A stretch of 49,099 bases of DNA from Bacteroidota bacterium (GTDB lineage: Bacteria > Bacteroidota > Ignavibacteria > Ignavibacteriales > Ignavibacteriaceae), in NCBI GenBank assembly GCA_021813585.1, contig JAKAJV010000010.1, forward strand, positions 1 to 49,099. Direction: 5' to 3'. Within the stretch, counting starts at the first letter, position 1; each line of letters begins with the position of its first letter. This document shows, one piece after another, positions 2,780 to 8,076 of this stretch. Below the pieces are notes generated by a model that made no database searches, was not told the DNA's origin, and saw only the letters and a list, made by a program, of their open reading frames with translations. The position numbers and the translations under genes were made by a program.

Positions 2780-3202
2780 TGTCATTCCCGCGAAAGCGGG
2801 AAACCAGAGTGTTAAAGTTAAAAGATACTCAATTATCTAGGAGAGATGAAAAGCGACAATTATTAAAAGTAATTGATATAATTGAGAATGAAAAATTATT
2901 ATGTCTATATTCTTGCTAGCAAAAGAAATGGGACGCTTTATATCGGTGTAACAAATGATCTAATAAGAAGAGTATATGAGCATAAAGAAGGTATTGCTGA
3001 TGGATTCACTAAGAAATATAATGTCAAAAACTTGGTTTACTATGAACTGCATAATGAGATTAAGACAGCAATTACGAAAGAGAAGCAAATGAAGAAATGG
3101 AAAAGAGCGTGGGAAATTGAACTCATTGAAAAATTTAACGCCGAATGGAAAGATTTGCATGTAGAATTAATTAAGTAGATTCCCGCTTTCGCGGGAATGA
3201 CA
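2780..3202. mobile_element. GIY-YIG gene boxed by a perfect 23-bp inverted repeat
   Basis: TGTCATTCCCGCGAAAGCGG followed by GAA at 2780-2802 recurs as its exact reverse complement at 3180-3202. Each copy contains its own hairpin, CCCGC-GAAA-GCGGG. The 377 bp between them hold only one gene, a small GIY-YIG nuclease-like protein. The right repeat starts 2 nt after that gene's stop codon. Translated on the minus strand the repeat reads 'VIPAKAGI', a string often seen where such dispersed palindromes are mistranslated. The unit interrupts the pyrimidine cluster between beta-ureidopropionase and the aminotransferase. Mobility is an inference from the symmetry and position. Confidence 0.55.
2888..3178 (+). 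CDS. GIY-YIG nuclease-like small protein
   Basis: A 96-residue protein of the single-domain GIY-YIG group (UPF0213/YhbQ-like). The core motif appears as YYVYIL near residues 4-9 and LYIGVT near 18-23, followed by the expected R-x-x-x-H region (IRRVYEHK) and a KEKQMKKW helix near the middle of the protein. The reading frame opens with TTG at 2882, but ATG 2888 gives the normal family N-terminus MKNYYVYIL. It lies between two halves of an inverted repeat and has no functional link with the metabolic genes around it, so it is probably a passenger or the enzyme that maintains that repeat. The fold call is strong; activity and target are unknown. Confidence 0.8.
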   Translation: MKNYYVYILASKRNGTLYIGVTNDLIRRVYEHKEGIADGFTKKYNVKNLVYYELHNEIKTAITKEKQMKKWKRAWEIELIEKFNAEWKDLHVELIK

Positions 3203-3243: not shown

Positions 3244-4575
3244 ATGACTTCAGACGAAATAATTAAAACAACCGCTGAGCATACGTACGGAACATGGCGG
3301 TTTCAAAAAGGCTGGAAACCAATGCACATAGTTGATGCCGAAGGATGTTATTTTTATGATTCGGCAGGGAAAAAGTATCTCGACTTCTCTTCGCAATTAA
3401 TGTGCGTTTCTCTCGGCCACAAAAACAAGGCTGTAATAAAAGCAATAGAAGAGCAAGCAAGGAAGCTGCCCTATATTGCGCCGGGTTATACTACCGATGT
3501 ACGTGCGGAACTCAGTAATCTTCTTCTTGAGGTATTGCCGGAAGGCCTGCAGAAATTTTATTTCTCCACATCCGGCACCGAGGCAAACGAGGCCGCGATT
3601 AAAATCGCACGGATGTATACGGGCAAGTACAAAATCATTTCGCGGTACAATTCCTACCACGGCTCAACTGCGGCATCAATTGCCGCTACCGGCGATCCGA
3701 GAAGGTGGCTTGTAGAGCCTTCGGGGAAGATTGACGGAGTAATATTTGCACCCGAATGCAACTGTTACCACTGCCCCATAGGACACGGTTATCCGGGCTG
3801 CGGGGTTGCCTGTGCAAATTATATTGAGCACATGATAAGGAACGAAAGCAACGTTGCAGCCGTAATTGTTGAACCAGTTGTAGGTACCAACGGTATCCTC
3901 GTCCCGCCGGAGGAATACATGCCCCGCCTGCGAAAGGTTTGCGACGAGAATAATGTTTTGTTAATAGCCGATGAAGTAATGAGCGGCTGGGGAAGAACGG
4001 GCAAATGGTTTGCAGTCGATCATTGGAACATTCAGCCTGATATTTTAACTACTGCAAAAGGAATAACCTCTGCCTATGTGCCGCTGGGACTAACAGCCAC
4101 AACAAAAAAAATAGCCGACTACTTTAACGACCATTACTTTGCCCACGGCCATACTTACGAAGCGCATCCGTTAACACTGGCGCCGGCCATAGCAGCAATA
4201 AATGAAATAAGAAAATACAACCTGGTTGAGAGATCGCTAGAGATGGGAGAGTATCTAGGTGAAAAATTAATCGAATTAAAGTCCCGGCATAGTTCTATCG
4301 GCGATGTTCGCGGGCTGGGCTTGTTCAGGGCTATCGAAATAGTAAAGAACAGAGAAACCCGCAAGCCTTTCAATACTAAGGAGGATAAGATTAACGGCGT
4401 TCAGCTAACGGTTGATAAGATAGCGGGCGAGCTGATGAAAATGGGAATTTATGTTTCTCCCTGGATAAGCCATTTTGTACTTGCGCCTCCGTTGATTATT
4501 GAAAAAGAAGAGATTGATTCGGCAGTAGGTGCTTTTGATGAAGTACTTAAAATTGCTGATGATGAAGTCGAATAG
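3244..4575 (+). CDS. Class III omega-amino acid aminotransferase (beta-alanine/beta-aminoisobutyrate)
   Basis: PLP-dependent fold-type I aminotransferase of 443 residues. The PLP-binding Lys is K272 in TTAKGITSAYVPLG, and D243 in LLIADEVMSGWGRTG contacts the pyridine nitrogen. STSGTEANEAAIK near 108-120 is the phosphate-binding loop. A Cys-rich patch at 172-190 (CNCYHCPIG...GCGVAC) is noticeable. In this cluster the likely job is transfer of the amino group from beta-alanine or beta-aminoisobutyrate to pyruvate or 2-oxoglutarate, giving (methyl)malonate semialdehyde for MmsA. Class III enzymes also include taurine and GABA aminotransferases; the neighbours decide here. No strong ribosome binding site is visible just upstream. 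Confidence 0.88.
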   Translation: MTSDEIIKTTAEHTYGTWRFQKGWKPMHIVDAEGCYFYDSAGKKYLDFSSQLMCVSLGHKNKAVIKAIEEQARKLPYIAPGYTTDVRAELSNLLLEVLPEGLQKFYFSTSGTEANEAAIKIARMYTGKYKIISRYNSYHGSTAASIAATGDPRRWLVEPSGKIDGVIFAPECNCYHCPIGHGYPGCGVACANYIEHMIRNESNVAAVIVEPVVGTNGILVPPEEYMPRLRKVCDENNVLLIADEVMSGWGRTGKWFAVDHWNIQPDILTTAKGITSAYVPLGLTATTKKIADYFNDHYFAHGHTYEAHPLTLAPAIAAINEIRKYNLVERSLEMGEYLGEKLIELKSRHSSIGDVRGLGLFRAIEIVKNRETRKPFNTKEDKINGVQLTVDKIAGELMKMGIYVSPWISHFVLAPPLIIEKEEIDSAVGAFDEVLKIADDEVE

Positions 4576-7473: not shown

Positions 7474-8076
7474 ATGGTTTCAAAATATATATCAAAAGCA
7501 AATTTAGTAACATACAAACGGATTGAGACAAAAATAATTTCTTTGCGAGCAGAGAAAGTAATTCTGGATAGTGATCTTGCCTCAATCTACGGAGTAACAA
7601 CTGCGCGCCTTAACCAGCAAGTCAAAAGGAATAAGGAAAGATTCCCTGCCGATTTTGCATTTCGACTTACGAAAGAAGAGTTCGGGAGTTTGATGTTGCA
7701 AAATGCAATATCAAACTCAATGCGCGGCGGAAGAAGAAAACTTCCTCTGGTTTTTACAGAACATGGCGCAATTATGGCGGCTAACGTTTTAAATAGTTCT
7801 AAAGCCGTTCGTATGAGCGTTCTTGTTGTTAGAGCGTTTGTCCAAATCCGCAGAAATATTTCTATCACCAGTGAGCTTGCAAAGAGGCTAGATGATCTTG
7901 AGCGAAAGGTGATTAACCATGACAGCGACATTCAAGCTTTGGTAGAAGCTATTCGCCAACTAATGCAGCCGCCGGAAAAATCAAAAAAAACATTTGGCTT
8001 CACTATCGGTGAACCAAAGGTGATTTATAAAAGTAAAAGAAAAATAAAAAATTTAGCAAATTTATCAGCGAGGTAA
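7474..8076 (+). CDS. ORF6N-domain DNA-binding protein
   Basis: A 200-residue protein whose first about 115 residues match the ORF6N domain (KilA-N/Bro-type DNA-binding family): VILDSDLASIYGV, LNQQVKRNKERFP, FRLTKEEF and LPLVFTEHGAIM occur in the order usual for the family. A helical tail (about 115-165, RRNISITSELAKRLDDLERK) looks like a short coiled coil, followed by a basic C-terminus. It lies 22 nt after preA and its stop is 2 nt before the dihydropyrimidinase ATG, whose GAGG ribosome binding site is inside its last codons, so it is cotranscribed. ORF6N genes are common passengers from phages and mobile elements. Whether it regulates the operon cannot be told from sequence. Confidence 0.82.
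   Translation: MVSKYISKANLVTYKRIETKIISLRAEKVILDSDLASIYGVTTARLNQQVKRNKERFPADFAFRLTKEEFGSLMLQNAISNSMRGGRRKLPLVFTEHGAIMAANVLNSSKAVRMSVLVVRAFVQIRRNISITSELAKRLDDLERKVINHDSDIQALVEAIRQLMQPPEKSKKTFGFTIGEPKVIYKSKRKIKNLANLSAR

Follow-up and report, generated by a model that had tools for sequence, protein, structure and literature searches.

A short GIY-YIG nuclease gene between head-to-head CGTC-type REPs, a candidate minimal REPtron-like element

Introduction

REPs of the CGTC type are a widespread class of short bacterial repeats. In the part of Di Nocera et al. (2013; PMC3733652) that is drawn on here, they carry a CGTC or TGTC tag, stems of 8 to 9 bp that start with AT, loops of 4 to 5 nt, and a CCA tail. 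They are dispersed through many genomes, where head-to-head dimers prevail, and the superfamily takes in dRS3 of Neisseria and RPE-6 and RPE-4 of Rickettsia. The same part describes them as apparently without a dedicated transposase and leaves open what spreads them.

REPtrons hold one small nuclease gene, that of the Y1/HuH transposase RAYT, inside an inverted pair of tagged hairpins, the GTAG REPs, and have gene-less dimers known as REPINs. IS elements and MITEs likewise have terminal inverted repeats around one gene and short gene-less relatives. Free-standing GIY-YIG homing endonucleases of the phage Seg type are single GIY-YIG genes with presence/absence polymorphism. Slx1, which shares the GIY-YIG fold, cuts branched DNA and works with Slx4.

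We present here a 423-bp unit in which a short GIY-YIG gene lies between head-to-head CGTC-type REPs, together with an analysis of its relatives. The unit lies in a 49,099-nucleotide stretch of DNA from a Bacteroidota bacterium (GenBank assembly GCA_021813585.1, contig JAKAJV010000010.1, positions 1 to 49,099; hereafter the window). No report of a GIY-YIG gene paired with CGTC REPs or dRS3 was found in open-access full text; preprints and most subscription journals lie outside this search, and a report elsewhere is possible.

Results

The proposed unit spans window positions 2780 to 3202. Its ends are TGTCATTCCCGCGAAAGCGGGAA at 2780 to 2802 and the exact reverse complement at 3180 to 3202, and each forms a hairpin around a GAAA loop (DNA folding energies of −8.6 and −9.0 kcal/mol, equaled by none of 200 shuffles). 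ATTCCCGCNNNNGCGGGAA occurs with zero mismatches at just three sites in the 4.54-Mb genome, two of which are the window unit, so the window repeats are not due to chance. Taken as REPs, they extend to 2780 to 2807 (plus strand) and 3176 to 3202 (minus strand). The left REP, with its tag outward, consists of TGTC (2780 to 2783), a hairpin (2784 to 2803), and CCAG (2804 to 2807); it is assigned from sequence, fold, the consensus of 50 elements, and the published definition. The right REP, inverted and assigned from sequence, fold, and the hairpin detector, consists of TGTC (3199 to 3202), a hairpin (3179 to 3198), and CTA (3176 to 3178), a tail that contains the stop codon of the enclosed gene on the other strand. 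The right stem is 8 bp long and the left 7 bp, its outermost pair being mismatched; both loops are 4 nt.

The repeats enclose a single GIY-YIG open reading frame on the plus strand (2882 to 3178), which encodes 96 amino acids from ATG 2888, or slightly more from TTG 2882, and ends with TAG at 3178. It matches PF01541 with an E value of 1.2e-15 and 58 bits, against a curated cutoff of 22.6, and no other Pfam-A domain was found in the protein. The unit separates a carbon-nitrogen hydrolase gene (1883 to 2758) from a class-III aminotransferase gene (3244 to 4575), all on the plus strand; in relatives the two genes adjoin without it. The preliminary description, made from the letters alone, had thus read correctly the identical inverted 23-mers, the GAAA-loop hairpin inside each, the single GIY-YIG gene between them, and the setting among metabolic genes. 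An ORF6N-domain gene (7474 to 8076; PF10543, E value of 3.3e-30), of a kind usual in phages, also lies among the same-strand genes of the region.

In 32 protein sequences from several phyla, Y7, Y18, G20, R28, H32, E53, and N84, which we take to be the catalytic GIY-YIG positions, are invariant. The protein match is free of internal stops in 75 of 80 related loci, and some genomes hold several copies of the gene. A structure model of the window protein has a pLDDT of 94. Its only Foldseek matches with E values below 0.1 are the UPF0213 proteins (BH0048 and EF2693; best E value, 7e-4) and, weakly, Slx1 (0.03 to 0.09). These GIY-YIG proteins are the nearest solved structures, with 26 to 27% and 19 to 35% identity, respectively, in the aligned part. 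The likeness to Slx1, a weak match to a predicted model, would suit an enzyme acting on extruded hairpins or cruciforms; Slx1 has Slx4 as a partner, whereas the GIY-YIG domain here stands alone.

By their sequence, the window repeats are classed as CGTC-type REPs with the pattern YGTC-[AT-stem-loop-stem-AT]-CCA; both window tags are TGTC, not GTAG. The flanks of the 80 relatives share this pattern (YGTC outside, a hairpin, and CCA or CCAG on the gene side) and no one fixed palindrome. Their stems mostly begin and end with AT, and the stem letters differ between genomes. The hairpin detector itself requires GTC, pairing, and a C. Among 50 complete elements, the base before GTC, which is not demanded, is T at a frequency of 0.80 or C at 0.18 (one end being cut), stem positions 1 and 2 are A (0.98) and T (0.94), and the tail reads C (demanded), C (0.91), and A (0.95). 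Some units have stems or loops longer than 8 to 9 bp or 4 to 5 nt. The tag, the AT-initial stem, the CCA tail, and the head-to-head dimers are those of the published CGTC REPs, as far as these are set out in the part of that paper used here (PMC3733652).

The repeats are also dispersed. With up to 2 mismatches, the tagged pattern has 198 matches in the genome of the window (98 forward and 100 reverse; reversed control, 0), and plus/minus pairs about 50 bp apart occur in several genomes. Among the places listed, the own-genome matches mostly have another stem type than the window unit. By the same pattern counts, this genome holds about 100 copies of an element of about 145 bp. Two that were read (L006, about 200 to 420; L007, about 380 to 620) are 94.6% identical, each a head-to-head pair of CGTC REPs enclosed by a larger inverted repeat, ACTCATGTTACGCA...TGCGTAACATGAGT. 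Since their stem differs and, in the two read, a larger inverted repeat surrounds them, an enzyme other than the window nuclease may move these dimers.

From 584 confirmed stretches, the 80 most similar to the window protein were taken as loci related to the window gene, with protein similarity as the sole basis of choice; 74 of them had enough flanking sequence. Counting hairpins within 100 bp whose tag points outward, 55 of the 74 have one on the left, 58 have one on the right, and 49 have one on both sides, the head-to-head arrangement of a REPtron. At least one side has a hairpin in 69, both tags point inward in 4, and no REP is detectable on either side in 5. In the same loci, head-to-head pairs frame 0.065% of 133,637 random positions at least 1 kb away and 3 of 710 control open reading frames of at least 120 amino acids, 69 of which have a hairpin within 100 bp on either side. 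The statistical link between GIY-YIG homologues and the palindrome that had been set as a test of the idea is therefore present. Hairpin density is 18.4 per kb in the 25 bp next to the gene and drops to about 0.2 per kb at distances above 800 bp. The 80 loci cover 19 named phyla, 14 of which include a head-to-head case, and 14 loci have no rank. Complete head-to-head units number 50 among all 80 loci, L081 being added to the 49 after exclusion from the 74 for its short right flank, and are 346 to 481 bp long (median, 373 bp).

Both ends of a unit resemble each other more than chance pairing allows. In 16 of the 50 units the left and right 9-nt arms are the same, whereas shuffling the pairings gives 2.9 (at most 9 in 2,000 shuffles), and left-right arm mismatches average 1.22 against 3.42, though stems differ between genomes. 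These sequence comparisons indicate that the left and right ends of one unit belong together. Stem distance and protein distance are weakly correlated (r = 0.23; 2 of 2,000 permutations as high).

The framing is specific to this GIY-YIG subfamily. Of the 146 genomes of the window's order, 91 have a match to the family profile at E values up to 1e-12; strong matches have at least 126 bits, and weaker ones (about 59 to 78 bits) belong to other GIY-YIG subfamilies. Strong matches have a CGTC hairpin within 100 bp in 41 of 50 rows (40 of 49 distinct genes, L176 and the first gene of L276 being one gene) and are framed head-to-head in 16 of 50 rows (15 of 49 genes); 9 of the 49 lack a detectable REP. 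L190, L200, L281, and L303 are outside this count, L177, L178, and L189 recur in the set of 80 loci (as L059, L070, and L082), and L180 is the window's own gene. Beside other GIY-YIG genes of the order, no CGTC hairpin lies within 100 bp in 20 loci, and 1 of the 20 has one within 350 bp. The same holds for Y1_Tnp genes, the RAYT superfamily, with 0 of 30 within 100 bp and 1 of 30 within 350 bp. These are 30 of 52 matches from ten chosen genomes (eight of the window's order and two Bradyrhizobium), with approximate positions at three loci with cut flanks.

Genomes with the gene also tend to be richer in REPs, in a comparison that covers one stem type and ignores kinship. Among the 65 genomes of the order with a strong gene match (E values up to 1e-20), 37 contain the CCCGC-stem REP (up to 2 mismatches), as do 28 of the 81 without, and at least 10 copies are found in 11 of 65 versus 1 of 81. 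For the nearest gene type (E values up to 1e-42), 17 of 18 genomes have this REP, against 48 of 128 others. Some genomes, G118 (19 copies), G151 (9), and G111 (8) among them, have many REPs and no strong gene match.

The arrangement recurs in further gene copies and on plasmids. Six of eight new copies (L168 to L175) in genomes already holding a relative are head-to-head; L166 and L167, whose coordinates coincide with those of L092 and L128, are outside this count. A plasmid collection contains 34 records that match the window protein; of the 13 read, 7 are head-to-head and 8 have a hairpin on either side. No CGTC hairpin lies within 100 bp of the related GIY-YIG gene in Rhizobium plasmids L141 and L142, Sinorhizobium L145, Planktothrix L144, Novosphingobium L368, L171, or L172. 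The gene in Planktothrix plasmid L144 adjoins another palindromic repeat family (GTCATTCTGAG...), which suggests that other repeat families may have GIY-YIG partners. In a Neisseria gonorrhoeae record from the same collection (L138), a GIY-YIG gene without listed annotation sits amid dRS3-like repeats; a hairpin lies 7 bp downstream of the gene, and the dRS3 copies are not head-to-head. A tblastn search of 50,697 phage records (E value, 1e-5) gave no relatives of the window protein.

The same sites exist in filled, gene-less, deleted, inverted, and empty states. At the window site, the GIY-YIG gene is absent from all 11 readable relatives of 12 (L040 being unreadable); L034, L038, and L039, whose downstream gene is just 35 to 37% identical, were left out as orthologous sites. 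In a member of the same genus (G001), the gene is missing and a single degenerate palindrome, GTCAT...ATGAC, remains at the site. The site holds a different small gene in L030, L033, and L036 (120 amino acids in L036), with short inverted repeats of 13 nt in L036 and 10 nt in L033; the L036-type product presumably resembles four-helix-bundle/S23-type proteins.

In Azospirillum lipoferum 4B, the gene lies between sufB and sufC with a head-to-head dimer on each side; among 12 suf records of Azospirillum from the plasmid collection, no other has the gene there. The 11 others match the 4B flanks in two pieces (84 to 86% covered). Four of these relatives were read, and neither gene nor tagged hairpin was found between sufB and sufC; in three of them, about 94% identical, the intergenic region is 91, 87, and 129 bp, versus 617 bp in 4B.

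Two Bradyrhizobium sites were compared in the same way, with gene-less loci chosen by hand from match lists, so that the proportions are not frequencies. The unreadable loci L275 and L356 do not enter the comparison. Site 1 (L126) is filled in 31 of 69 readable loci, holds a remnant in 1, and is without the gene in 37. Thirty full-length matches there carry hairpins partly because the query did. Of the gene-less loci, 9 of 37 have a tagged hairpin, and 4 of 37 (L249, L255, L259, and L261) have a head-to-head pair with a short spacer; the left contexts of dimers and gene units differ. L250 is a unit reduced by deletion, with 14 residues of the gene left between its two REPs. The filled state requires at least 19 changes on a quick flank tree, 15 of them forced by supported branches. 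Since 31 of 500 shuffles need no more changes than this, presence is only weakly tied to kinship. Site 2 (L128) is filled in 36 and without the gene in 13 of 49 rows (one genome appearing twice, as L345 and L358), with at least 11 changes, 5 forced by supported branches, and a tagged hairpin in 4 of the 13 gene-less rows. L346 has flanks 96 and 93% identical and neither gene nor REP; in L363, the unit is inverted with both REPs kept. Together with G001 and Azospirillum, these loci provide the empty sites in close relatives by which the mobility of the unit was to be judged.

Solo palindromes in L029, L236 to L241 (site 1), L352, L353, and L365 are chimeric, joining the outer half of a left REP to the outer half of a right REP. 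They were considered as excision scars and dropped, as deletion between the REPs, which are imperfect direct repeats, suffices without a nuclease. Much of the gain and loss in Bradyrhizobium can be such deletion, with no need of the nuclease.

Junctions were compared in the 50 elements. Target-site duplication did not emerge consistently: of 80 offset/length combinations, 3 lie beyond 3 SD of the shuffled pairings and share no pattern, so the junctions give no reading of insertion. There is also no consistent target consensus outside the tag. In Azospirillum and Bradyrhizobium, the intergenic DNA is too diverged to place the exact pre-insertion junction to the base, and flank searches gave no clean empty site for plasmid loci L140, L366, and L369. 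G051 holds a pair of copies with 99% identity over 420 bp, separated by 6.4 kb within a REP-rich local repeat array, so segmental duplication is possible. G049 (L277, G049:C86:44000-47200) has three GIY-YIG units in tandem, 89 to 93% identical, with a period of 419 bp.

Discussion

We consider it probable that the unit is a minimal REPtron-like selfish element, in which the gene for a structure-selective GIY-YIG nuclease is the spacer of a head-to-head CGTC REP pair and takes the place of RAYT. The architecture, its orientation, its restriction to one subfamily, the conserved catalytic residues, and the varied states of the sites are observed, and they make the nuclease a strong candidate for the enzyme that spreads CGTC hairpins; recognition, cutting, and movement by the protein are inferred from them. 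The REPs would extrude as hairpins or a cruciform, in single-stranded DNA at a fork or in supercoiled DNA. The hairpin, together with its YGTC tag and CCA tail, would be what the nuclease recognizes, and cutting would take place at the REP ends. Repair of the cut would then move or copy the DNA between the two inverted REPs, which is the nuclease gene itself in a full unit and a short spacer in a gene-less dimer. Such dimers, which are REPIN-like, may originate from gene-bearing units that lost their interior by deletion, and they could be movable in trans.

The likeness to known systems is partial. In the part of PMC3733652 consulted, CGTC REPs are not associated with transposase genes, whereas here a GIY-YIG gene is a regular resident of head-to-head pairs. 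The preliminary description had spoken of dispersed palindromes (translated 'VIPAKAGI') with no accepted mobilizer; these are the CGTC REPs, apparently without a dedicated transposase in the same source, and its guess at a mobilizer becomes sharper for it. REPtrons share the single small nuclease gene inside an inverted tagged-hairpin pair and the gene-less dimers. They differ in a nuclease of an unrelated superfamily (HuH there and GIY-YIG here, a search of Pfam-A giving no Y1 domain in the window protein) and in the tag (GTAG there and YGTC here). The units share presence/absence variation with free-standing GIY-YIG homing endonucleases, but they are intergenic, REP-framed, and without a phage match. 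Unlike in IS elements and MITEs, just a GIY-YIG domain is found, and target-site duplication is not seen in the 50 elements.

The most serious rival, which we regard as unlikely, is a homing-type nuclease that cuts gene-less REP dimers, its gene being copied in by homologous repair between REPs that something else spreads. GIY-YIG is a well-known fold of homing endonucleases, gene-bearing units and gene-less dimers share one intergenic site across Bradyrhizobium species, and the 50 elements have no consistent target-site duplication, all of which such a nuclease would accommodate. However, at Bradyrhizobium site 1 the dimers and gene units differ in left context, and the four Azospirillum relatives have no tagged hairpin where A. 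lipoferum 4B has the gene. The known REP movers, Y1_Tnp genes, are without a CGTC REP within 100 bp in all 30 loci.

It is less likely still that the gene is a passenger, beside which REPs spread by an unrelated enzyme have settled, or which became trapped in a dimer at some time and has traveled with it ever since. A short gene is easily carried, CGTC REPs are dispersed in many genomes according to the part of PMC3733652 used here, and 69 of the 710 control open reading frames have a tagged hairpin within 100 bp on a side. Against this, other GIY-YIG genes, Y1_Tnp genes, and open reading frames in general are not framed, the stems agree left and right within units while differing between genomes, and the catalytic residues are invariant in the 32 sequences from several phyla.

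A host function appears very improbable. The protein would be an Slx1-like structure-selective repair nuclease that resolves REP cruciforms, with the hairpins as terminators or an autoregulatory site; Slx1 is, weakly, among the Foldseek neighbors, and the hairpins flanking the gene could act to end transcription. This reading sits poorly with the patchy occurrence of the gene at orthologous sites, its location inside operons (the window and sufB-sufC), its several copies per genome, and tags conserved beyond the needs of a terminator. Chance or an artefact of a detector that itself demands GTC, pairing, and a C is effectively refuted, as the same detector gives 0.065% at the 133,637 positions, 3 of 710 open reading frames, and 0 of 20 and 0 of 30 control genes, and the undemanded pyrimidine before GTC, AT at the stem start, and A and G in the tail still emerge.

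With a regular, subfamily-specific partner gene, what spreads CGTC REPs becomes directly testable. If the nuclease moves the REPs, a GIY-YIG enzyme would drive a mobile system that has no transposase, an unrelated fold would have converged on the design of RAYT and its REPs, and the element could explain the CGTC repeats of Neisseria, rhizobia, and many uncultured phyla. A wider and more tentative proposal, which we hold less firmly than the element itself, is that GIY-YIG REPtrons are among the smallest autonomous mobile elements (96 residues, about 370 bp), occur in many phyla, and made and maintain the CGTC REP superfamily, including dRS3 and RPE, and that a second, separate class may exist in which short GIY-YIG genes lie between long direct repeats, some by tRNA or tmRNA genes.

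This possible second class of minimal GIY-YIG element comes from other short GIY-YIG genes (L008, L009, and L012 in the window's genome and L296 to L315). They have no CGTC hairpins, and 13 of 24 lie between direct repeats of 17 to 85 bp; repeats of at least 17 bp surround 7 of 637 control open reading frames, taken from other loci, and 23 of 71 genes of the REP-framed subfamily itself. A tRNA gene lies near GIY-YIG genes L008, L009, and L304, and a tmRNA call lies near L011.
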